A stretch of DNA of 64,000 bases from Alphaproteobacteria bacterium (GTDB lineage: Bacteria; Pseudomonadota; Alphaproteobacteria; Micropepsales; Micropepsaceae). Both the position numbers and the translations under genes were made by a program. Numbering within the stretch: the first letter of the stretch is position 1; every line of letters begins with the position of its first letter. The notes below the pieces were generated by a model, which was given only the letters and a program-made list of their open reading frames with translations, was not told the DNA's origin and did not search any database. The DNA lies in contig JAHFQC010000009.1 of assembly GCA_023259375.1 (NCBI GenBank), positions 31,357 through 95,356 on the forward strand. The letters are read 5' to 3'. This document shows positions 26,730-49,408 of this stretch, in pieces.

Positions 26730-27467
26730 ATCGCACCTCGAATCCGACCCGCCCCAAGTGTGCGGGGCGAACGCCGCAAACGCAACGCAGCATTTCCGCG
26801 CCGGGCGACTGCTCGCTACGAGTGCATCGCCGCTCTTTTCTGCTTCATGCGGGTGCACCGATCTGTCATCCCGGACGCGCGCGGGATGATAATGAGGTTT
26901 CACGCGGAGGTGCGGAGGATGCGTTCTGCCTCACGCGGGCACACCCCATCTGTCATCCCCGGCTGAGCAAGCGTAAGCGCAGCGAAGGGCGCCATAGCGC
27001 CAGCGTATTGGCGGGACCCAGGTGGAGAAAATGGCACGCTGCTTGGGATGATCCTCGCTCGTTCTTCAAGAGCGAAATTGTTCAAGCACCTGGGTTCCGC
27101 CAATACGCTGGCGCTATGGCGCCCCTCGCATGGCGCTACGCGCCTTGGCTCGGCCGGGAATGACACAAGGGATATCTCCGCGACTCCGCGTGAACCTCTT
27201 TTTCCCCCGCACAGCCTCCTCTACGTGTTTTCCCTGATCATTGCTGTTGCGCACGATCGATCGCTGCGGCCAACCCGCGTGCGCCGCCGGTAAGCGACAA
27301 GTGTTTGGTGTGTAAACAAATTATCCCGCATCTGCGCGGTGGATGGCATCCTGCTCGTGTCCCGGCACGGCGGCGCGCTCTATACAGCATCTTAGCCATT
27401 TCTGGGTGATCCTGCCTGCCCAAGAAGCCCCGCGACGGTGCGGCGTTCAGGGATTGGAATCGCAGCC
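26730..27467. other. Intergenic region without a gene, containing a long palindrome
   Basis: 738 bp between the symporter start and the chemoreceptor start. The middle is the 300-bp inverted repeat listed separately. The left part carries another copy of TGTCATCCC (26864). The right part (27200-27467) should contain the chemoreceptor promoter but shows no convincing boxes. ORFs listed here are shadows of the repeat. Confidence 0.7.
26894..27199. repeat. 300-bp imperfect palindrome (long inverted repeat)
   Basis: The core arms 26987-27024 and 27087-27124 are 38 nt each and complementary at 37 of 38 positions, separated by 62 nt. Outward, TGTCATCCCCGGC (26951) mirrors GCCGGGAATGACA (27153-27165), and CACGCGGAGGTGCGGAG (26901) mirrors CTCCGCGACTCCGCGTG (27176), so symmetry extends over about 300 bp. 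Parts recur at 18569 and 18788. It has no ORF with transposase features; a MITE-like or paired REP element is plausible. Confidence 0.8.
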
Positions 27468-29217
27468 ATGAACTTCAAAGATCTTTCCGTCAGCAAGAAG
27501 CTGATCGGCGCGTTCGTCGTGGTTCTCGTGACCACGCTGGCGCTCGGTCTTTTCGCCATCAACAGCCTGTCGCGGATCGACGATGCCGCCTACGATCTGC
27601 GCGCCAGCAGGCTGCCGGCGATCAGCTATCTCGGCAAGTTCCAGTATCACACGACCCGTTATCGCTCTTTCCAGGCTTCCATTCTGATGGTGCCGGAAGC
27701 GCAGCGGGAAAAGGACACTAAGCTTCGCATCGGCGATCGCGATGCCGCGGAAGCGGCGCTGGTTTCATACGAAAAGCTGGTGTCGTCGCCCGAAGAACGC
27801 GAATTGGCGAAGACGATCCGGACGGCCTGGGACCAATACAAGCCCATGGACGACAAGATGATCGAAATCTTCCAGGCGAAGGGCCAGGAAGGTGGCGTGG
27901 CGTATCTGACCCACGAGATGCGCGACGTCTTCACGGTCATCAAGAACGGCGTTGAACAAGACGTCGAACTCAATCGCAAGAGCGGCGAAGACCTGGGCAT
28001 CCAGGGGCACAATGTCTATTTGTCTTCCCGCGTGTGGATCATCATCGCCATCGCGCTTGCCGCCGCGCTGTGCGCCGCCGCCGGTATCGTGCTGATCCGC
28101 GCCATCTCCAAACCGCTGGAAAGCATGACCGAGGCGATGGGTGAACTGGCACGCGGCAATCTCGCCGTCCATGTCCCCAATGCCGATCAGCAGGACGAGA
28201 TCGGCGCGCTGGCCGAGGCCATGACCGGTTTCAAGAACCAGCTTGCTTCGGCCGAAGAGGCCAAGCAGAAGCAGACAGAAGTGATCGTCTCGTCGATCGG
28301 CACCGGCCTGGACTATCTCGCCAAGGGCGACCTCACCCATCGCGTCACCGCCGATCTCACCGGCGCCTTCGCCAAGCTGAAGGAAGACTTCAACACCGCG
28401 ATGACCCGGCTTCAGGACACGGTGAAGATGGTCCTGGTGTCGACGCATCAGATCGACAACAACGCCGGCGAGATTTCGGCGGCGTCCGACGACCTGTCAC
28501 GCCGTACCGAACAGCAGGCGGCCGCGCTCGAAGAGACCGCCGCGGCGCTCGAGGAAATCACCGCTACGGTCAAAAAGACCGCCGTCAATGCCAAGGACGC
28601 TTCGCACAGCGTTGCGGGAGCCAAGGATGCGGCCGAGAACGGCGGGCAGGTGGTCGAGACGGCGGTCAGCGCCATGGATGCCATCGCCCAGTCGGCGAAA
28701 CAGATCACCGACATCATCGGCGTCATCGACGAGATCGCGTTCCAGCGAAGCGGCCAAGCAGATCAAGTCGCTGATCAACACCTCGAGCGAGCATGTCGAT
28801 AACGGCGTGAAATACGTCGGCGAAACCGGCAAAGCCCTGAAGAGCATCATCGAGCAGGTCTTGCAGATCAACAGTCTGGTTCGGGAAATGGCGCAAGCCG
28901 GCGAGCAGCAGTCGATCGGCATCGAAGAAGTCAATTCGGCCGTCGGCCAGATGGATCAGGTGACCCAGCAGAACGCCGCGATGGTGGAAGAGGCGACCGC
29001 CGCCGCCCGCAACATGGCCGGCGAGACCAAGGCGCTCACCGAACTGGTGGCATTTTTCTCGGTCGGCGACACGCATTTCGCGGCCCCTGCCGCCGCCGCC
29101 AAGCGCCCCGCGCCTCGTCCGGTGGCGACATCTCCCGCGACGCGCCCCGCCGCGCGCACGCAAGCCGCCGTCGCCCGCAAACCCGCCGAAGAACCCGGCG
29201 ACTGGACGGAGTTCTAG
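27468..29217 (+). pseudogene. Methyl-accepting chemotaxis protein gene, disrupted at the signalling tip
   Basis: Start MNFKDLSVSKKLIGAFVVVL: TM1 about 10-32, a four-helix-bundle periplasmic sensor about 33-190, TM2 about 193-215, HAMP about 216-268 and a second HAMP-like segment (YLAKGDLTHRVTADLTGAF), then the MCP signalling helix. The frame runs to DEIAFQ at 28745. Directly after it, in another frame, comes EAAKQIKSLINTSSEHV, and that frame continues to a stop at 29217. The intervening hairpin tip (normally TNLLALNAGVEAARAG... to ...ALAQRS, about 37 codons) is absent. About 110 nt are missing, which also shifts the frame. The C-terminus GDWTEF resembles a CheR-docking pentapeptide. The gene is therefore broken, or the assembly is wrong here. 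Confidence 0.88.
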
Positions 29218-47758: not shown

Positions 47759-48129
47759 ATGCAGGCAAAGCTGGTTTTGGTGGTGGCCTGCGCCTTGATC
47801 GATCCCGATGGGCGCGTGCTGATCGCACAACGTCCCGCCGGAAAATCTATGGGTGGGCTGTGGGAGTTTCCGGGTGGCAAGGTCGAGCCGGGCGAACGCC
47901 CGGAAGAGGCTCTGATCCGCGAGCTTTCCGAGGAGTTGGGAATTGTGGTCAAGGAGCCGTGTCTGGCGCCTTTCAGTTTTGCCTCGCACGCCTATCCCGA
48001 TTTTCATCTTCTGATGCCGCTTTATGTGTGCCGCCGCTGGGAAGGCGTGCCCCAGGCCAAGGAGCATTTGGCGCTGAAATGGGTCCGGCCGACATCCCCT
48101 TGGTGCCGATGCTGCGGGATCTGCTTTAG
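47759..48129 (+). pseudogene. mutT: 8-oxo-dGTP diphosphatase (mutT), damaged near the 3' end
   Basis: The frame from MQAKLVLVVACALIDPDGRV contains the Nudix box GGKVEPGERPEEALIRELSE-EL and reads correctly to LKWVRP (48091). The expected C-terminus then appears in a different frame as ADIPLVPMLRDLL with its stop at 48127-48129. The usual 8-10 residues between WVRP and PPAD are missing; by frame arithmetic the loss is 1 mod 3. The short sequence CGGCCG at the junction could be microhomology. As written the ORF runs on to 48145 with a nonsense tail rich in Cys (PTSPWCRCCGICF). The enzyme normally hydrolyses oxidised dGTP; the Nudix core is intact, so residual activity is possible. Confidence 0.8.
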
Positions 48130-48269
48130 GCCGCTTCCTGCGTGATACGGGCGGCGCGACGGCCATCGAATACGCCATGGTGGCGGCCTGCATCGCTGCA
48201 GTGGTCGTGGCGGTTGTCTCCAACATCGGTCAAGGCGTGCTGGAATTGTACAAACAGGTCCACTTCTGA
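48078..48269 (+). pseudogene. Flp/Fap type IVb pilin, 5' end missing
   Basis: In frame 3 directly after the mutT stop the sequence reads RFLRDTGGATAIEYAMVAA, then CIAAVVVAVVSNIGQGVLEL and YKQVHF, stop 48267-48269. This is the Flp pilin core (GATAIEYAM, prepilin peptidase site and hydrophobic helix). The frame is open back only to 48078 and contains no ATG, GTG or TTG before ATG 48168 inside the helix. The normal first 5-8 codons and the ribosome site are absent. The ORF track misses it. It is either truncated by the same event that damaged mutT or uses an unrecognised start. Confidence 0.7.
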
Positions 48270-48337: not shown

Positions 48338-49408
48338 ATGAGCACGCGCATCACAACCGTCTATCGCGTCAAGGCGGAAGCCTCGACTATCGAAGCCCGC
48401 GCCCGCGGAATTTCCGTGGAGCAGAGTGTGGAAATGCCGCTGGAGCCGATCGACGATCCGTTCGTGAAGGACGAGATCATCGGCCGGGTCGAGTCGATCA
48501 AGGACCTGGGGCAGGGCGAATACGAAGTCCGCTGCGCTCTGGCGTCGATCACCACCGGCTATGATGGCGGCCAGCTCATCAACATGATCCTCGGCAACTC
48601 CTCGCTGCAGGACGGCGTCTCGCTGATCGATGCGGAGTTTCCCGCCGATATCGTCGAAGCCTTCGGTGGCCCGAATATCGGCATCGAGGGTGTCAGGGCG
48701 CGCGTGAATGCCAAAGGTGCACTGTCCGCGACCGCCCTTAAGCCGCAAGGCACGCCCCCGGCGACGCTGGCGCGGCTGGCCTACGACATCGCTCTCGGCG
48801 GCATCGATTACATCAAGGACGACCACGGCATCGCCGACCAGACCTATTGCCCGTTCGAGGCACGGGTGCCGATGATTGCCGAAGCCGTCCAGAAGGCCAG
48901 CCAGAAGACCGGCGTGCCGACCCAGTATCTGCCCAGCCTCAACGGCAATCTCGACAAGATGCGCAAACAGCTCGCGCTGGCCCGGTCGGTCGGGATCGAA
49001 GGCGTGCTGATTGCGCCGATGCTGTGCGGCTTTGCGACCTTCCAGACCCTGAAGAAGGAGAACCCCGATTTCCTGTTCATGACCCATCCTTCGATGGCGG
49101 GCGGGCCAATGGCGGCGGAGTTCTTCTTCGGCAAGCTGATGCGTCTGTTGGGCTCAGACGCCTCGGTGTTCTGCAATTACGGCGGACGGTTCGGCTAGAT
49201 TTCGAACTGGTGCCTGCAAGACGAGCCCGGCCTGAAGCCGTGCGTGCCGGTGCCTGCCGGCGGCATGGAGCTGAAGCGGGTGCCCGAACTGCTCGACTTC
49301 TTCGGTCGCGATGTGATGCTGCTGATCGGCGGCAGCCTCTTGGCGGCCAAGGAGAACATCACCAAGGAGACGGAAGCCTTCTGCAACGCGGTGCGGAACC
49401 ACAAATGA
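48338..49408 (+). pseudogene. RuBisCO-like protein (form IV) with an in-frame TAG
   Basis: The start MSTRITTVYRVKAEASTIEA is 12 codons inside the listed ORF. Family segments are TALKPQG (active-site Lys of loop 1), GGIDYIKDDHGIAD (Lys of the carbamate site and Asp kept, Glu replaced by His, so not a true RuBisCO) and FMTHPSMAGGPMAAEFF. At 49196 NYGGRFG is followed by TAG. The same frame then continues ISNWCLQDEPGLKPCVPVPA, ELLDFFGRDVMLLIGGSLLA to TGA 49406-49408, which overlaps the next ATG by 4 nt. The linker after GGRFG is about 7-8 residues shorter than I expect for the family, so an in-frame deletion may have created the TAG. Likely role before damage: methylthioribulose-phosphate isomerase-type reaction. 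Confidence 0.82.

Follow-up and report, generated by a model that had tools for sequence, protein, structure and literature searches.

Results and Discussion

An interrupted RuBisCO-like gene next to an intact cupin gene

The window, a stretch of 64,000 nucleotides that our searches place near Rhizomicrobium (Alphaproteobacteria), carries a RuBisCO-like protein (RLP) gene whose frame runs from an ATG at 48338 to a TGA at 49406-49408 and is broken at codon 287 by a TAG at 49196-49198. The features at this locus are as follows.

48338..49195, + strand: upstream segment of the RLP gene (DeepYkr/RLP1-type), with 286 codons that cover barrel strands beta1-beta6
49196..49198, + strand: in-frame TAG at the deletion junction, TA (49196-49197) lying on one side and G (49198) on the other; 21 nt of R. 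electricum absent
49199..49408, + strand: downstream segment of the RLP gene, with 69 codons and a closing TGA, covering what is left of alpha6 as well as beta7, beta8 and the C-terminal helix
49405..49851, + strand: cupin, homologue of Rru_A2000 (MTXu-5-P methylsulfurylase), intact, with its start overlapping the RLP stop

Around the stop the window reads AAT TAC GGC GGA CGG TTC GGC TAG ATT TCG AAC TGG TGC CTG. The first-pass annotation of this DNA held that the half of the gene downstream of the TAG is still coding, and both the frame and the protein family bear this out: PF00016 (RuBisCO_large) is matched separately by the upstream 286 codons (E = 4.6e-17) and by the downstream 69 codons (E = 1.8e-6), in the order and register expected. 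An open frame of 69 codons is unremarkable by itself, with a chance of about 0.13 by base composition, so it is the family match and not the length that makes the downstream frame notable.

Enzyme family and pathway

The best solved-structure match of the gene is 3qfw, an RLP that we take to be R. palustris RLP1 (E = 4e-104), and all other RuBisCO and RLP structures are far behind. Together with PF00016 and the adjoining cupin, rather than a clade tree or a comparison with Rru_A1998, this match assigns the gene to the DeepYkr-type RLPs, the family of the MTRu-1-P isomerase of the MTA-isoprenoid shunt. The cupin, for its part, best matches Rru_A2000 (structure 3jzv, E = 1e-51), and a cupin also lies next to the RLP in the close relatives L024-L027. 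Of the corresponding R. rubrum proteins, Rru_A1998 (the RLP) acts as the 5-methylthioribulose-1-P isomerase, and Rru_A2000 (the cupin) liberates methanethiol and deoxyxylulose-5-P (PMC4958253); RLP1 (RPA2169) and the cupin RPA2170 of R. palustris carry out the same two reactions (PMC5893883). The window cupin resembles Rru_A2000 and RPA2170 in sequence and in its place directly after the RLP, with no difference evident.

The remainder of the genome fits this pathway. As in other DeepYkr RLP systems, mtnA and mtnP accompany the RLP and its cupin; both code for enzymes that act upstream of the RLP and are intact, open frames, no more than 4 kb apart on another contig (C129), and acireductone dioxygenase (ARD, PF03079) was not found in the genome, which is the combination expected for the MTA-isoprenoid shunt. 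A search of the genome for a second RuBisCO-superfamily gene found none, which rules out a second functional RLP copy. Intact orthologues of the window gene are like the 5-methylthioribulose-1-P 1,3-isomerases Rru_A1998 and RPA2169 in sequence family, length and predicted fold. Unlike these, the window copy, known from sequence alone, has a TAG, lacks seven residues and has an incomplete (beta/alpha)8 barrel; by descent it is classed as a broken member of the DeepYkr family and not a working one.

A 21-nt difference accounts for the stop codon

The closest relative found in whole-genome and genome-contig searches is Rhizomicrobium electricum DSM 21034, at 93% protein identity. Its orthologue is intact, and in the alignment its 21 extra bases fall precisely where the window TAG joins TA to G, such that GGC TAT GCG CCC GAG CGT TGC CGC CAG ATT in R. 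electricum corresponds to GGC TAG ATT in the window, and YAPERCRQ is replaced by a stop. The same 21-nt gap is seen against other Rhizomicrobium-type relatives. None of the relatives whose match reaches that far has a stop at the site, and the linker is full length in every relative read across it, a reading that leaves out rows L003-L005, L007-L009 and L012-L015, inside whose matches no stop occurs. A subfamily with a naturally shorter linker is thus ruled out. The first-pass annotation had estimated the linker as 7-8 residues short and had suggested that an in-frame deletion of 21-24 nt joined the TA of a Tyr codon to a later G; the comparison with related RuBisCO-like proteins that it proposed as a check confirms both points and sets the values at seven residues and 21 nt.

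The junction offers few hints of how such a deletion would have arisen. Microhomology with respect to R. electricum amounts to only 1 nt, and a search of the R. electricum junction for direct repeats of at least 6 nt found none, which rules out slippage between such repeats there. With 1 nt of microhomology no clear slippage mechanism is apparent, and this counts against a real deletion.

At the 3′ end of the gene, the RLP TGA overlaps the cupin ATG at 49405 by 4 nt (ATGA); the nearest relatives have an overlap of 1 nt (TGATG or TAATG). Where relatives keep the ancestral RLP stop, TGA or TAA, the window has AAA (49400-49408), and the frame runs on to the following TGA, hence the growth of the overlap from 1 to 4 nt. 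The translational coupling described earlier as preserved is therefore kept as an overlap with the cupin start, but not in its exact extent.

Recoding and split-protein alternatives

An in-frame TAG followed by a conserved coding frame is also what pyrrolysine-type UAG recoding would present, and read-through or recoding of the TAG could in principle yield a functional full-length protein. We regard this as extremely improbable. Among the 47 tRNAs recognised by ARAGORN from 49 RF00005 hits, none has a CTA anticodon (a CUA tRNA), an absence that is less than absolute in a genome 96.5% complete, and the genome-wide search for PylS gave only hits of 37.6 and 25 bits against a cut-off of 178, which are probably ordinary class II synthetases. 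The RNA fold of the 92 nt after the TAG is about as stable as that of shuffled sequences (z = -1.3). Moreover, every relative that could be tested has a sense codon here, and the window TAG, unlike a recoded one, sits on a deletion junction. Even if the stop were read through with the right residue at Tyr287, the product would still lack seven residues, and with an invariant Tyr and an invariant Cys both deleted, read-through could not bring back the enzyme. Stop-codon recoding is accordingly rejected on the tRNA and PylS results and the ordinary RNA fold, in agreement with the first-pass annotation, which had treated it as an exotic and unsupported alternative. The locus is thereby removed as a candidate for recoding, and its TAG is accounted for exactly.

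Both pieces retain conserved sequence, as they would if they were made separately and reassembled as a working split barrel. This too is very improbable, given that the sequence after the TAG (ATT TCG AAC TGG) provides no start codon at the junction and that seven residues are missing where loop6 meets alpha6.

Consequences for the protein and age of the lesion

Tyr287 and Cys292, both inside the deleted stretch, are invariant among 24 aligned relatives. In an AlphaFold2 model of the R. electricum protein (mean pLDDT 92), beta6 spans residues 275-279, alpha6 289-300, beta7 310-314 and beta8 334-337, which places the TAG past strand beta6 and ahead of helix alpha6. By this model, the 286-residue product would be without alpha6, beta7, alpha7, beta8 and the C-terminal helix. 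With the two invariant residues deleted and the barrel elements from alpha6 to beta8 missing, we infer that the product would be inactive.

The gene shows no decay beyond this single lesion. Relative to R. electricum, dN/dS is 0.077 before the stop and 0.057 after it, values that indicate strong purifying selection on both halves. The window lineage shows no significant excess of nonsynonymous change (15 synonymous and 9 nonsynonymous changes versus 23 and 4, p = 0.11). Such low ratios in both halves imply that the lesion is either very recent or present only in the assembly.

Other lesions in the window and the state of the assembly

Two further genes in the window, which the first-pass annotation of this locus does not mention, are broken by compact deletions.

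27438..29217, + strand: methyl-accepting chemotaxis receptor gene, 110-nt frame-shifting deletion at 28743/28744
47759..48145, + strand: NUDIX/MutT-type gene, 34-nt frame-shifting deletion at 48084/48085 relative to R. electricum

The chemoreceptor deletion takes out the conserved hairpin tip, a segment that is conserved and rich in paralogues. The mutT gene lies 1.1 kb upstream of the RLP lesion and is the sole strong MutT match of the genome; its conserved C-terminus ADIPLVPMLRDLL is now in another frame. At the site of this deletion, R. electricum has the near repeat CTGGCCGA/CCGGCCGA. Including the 21 nt of the RLP gene, the window thus holds three compact deletions that break a frame or create a stop, and loss-of-function calls in this genome need caution. 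Apart from the sites of 10-N gaps, a comparison of this genome with R. electricum contig 9 over approximately 185 kb yielded no further clear lesion inside a gene. Most of the open reading frames flagged in this survey were antisense shadows, over-extended starts or contig ends; they were sorted by eye, and the count of three is for that reason approximate. In the reverse comparison, no deletion of this kind that could be distinguished from shadow frames was seen to break a gene of R. electricum.

The assembly itself has irregularities. Runs of exactly 10 N, which represent scaffold gaps, occur in contigs C154 (14888, 23139 and 76346) and C86 (843), and for the three gaps with both flanks locatable in R. 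electricum the hidden sequence amounts to approximately 13, 36 and 0 nt, a size range that covers the two smaller deletions (21 and 34 nt). One 6.7-kb contig (C9, L049) has a GC content of 54% versus 62% and carries the tRNA order Thr-Tyr-Gly-Thr beside an EF-Tu gene divergent from the copy on C55. This contig is probably a contaminant; the genome is likely contaminated and possibly metagenome-derived.

A real deletion or an assembly error

The RLP of the window is of a known enzyme type, and its gene has either suffered an ordinary deletion or only looks that way through an error in the draft assembly. The assembler might have lost a short segment where coverage was poor or strains were mixed, leaving the gene of the organism itself intact. 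The two further broken genes in the window make such an artefact likelier and a serious rival, more so as R. electricum shows nothing comparable in the reverse direction. Gaps in the same assembly hide stretches of similar length, the genome has a probable contaminant contig and is possibly metagenome-derived, and neither half of the gene shows relaxed selection. However, the contig that carries the lesion (C149) contains no N, its junction is clean, and the rest of it aligns well to R. electricum. Assemblers also seldom join ends on a 1-nt overlap. We therefore give an assembly error a substantial chance, somewhat above one in three.

Our preferred reading, held with modest confidence, is that this single-copy gene for a DeepYkr-type RLP is present as a real loss-of-function (pseudogene) allele, even though the absence of further decay, the contaminated draft with its N gaps and the two similar deletions nearby all speak against it. 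A far more specific proposal, that the lesion is real and one of a burst of small deletions in a lineage now losing MTA sulfur salvage, its best MutT-like NUDIX protein being lost as well, seems improbable. Under the preferred reading of a pseudogene allele, a 21-nt deletion would have fused TA from the Tyr287 codon with the G in codon 294, would be present in the DNA of the organism, and would be very recent. In the MTA-isoprenoid shunt, intact relatives convert 5-methylthioribulose-1-P into 1-methylthioxylulose-5-P; in this organism MTA recycling would halt at MTRu-1-P, and translation of the cupin would presumably be reduced.
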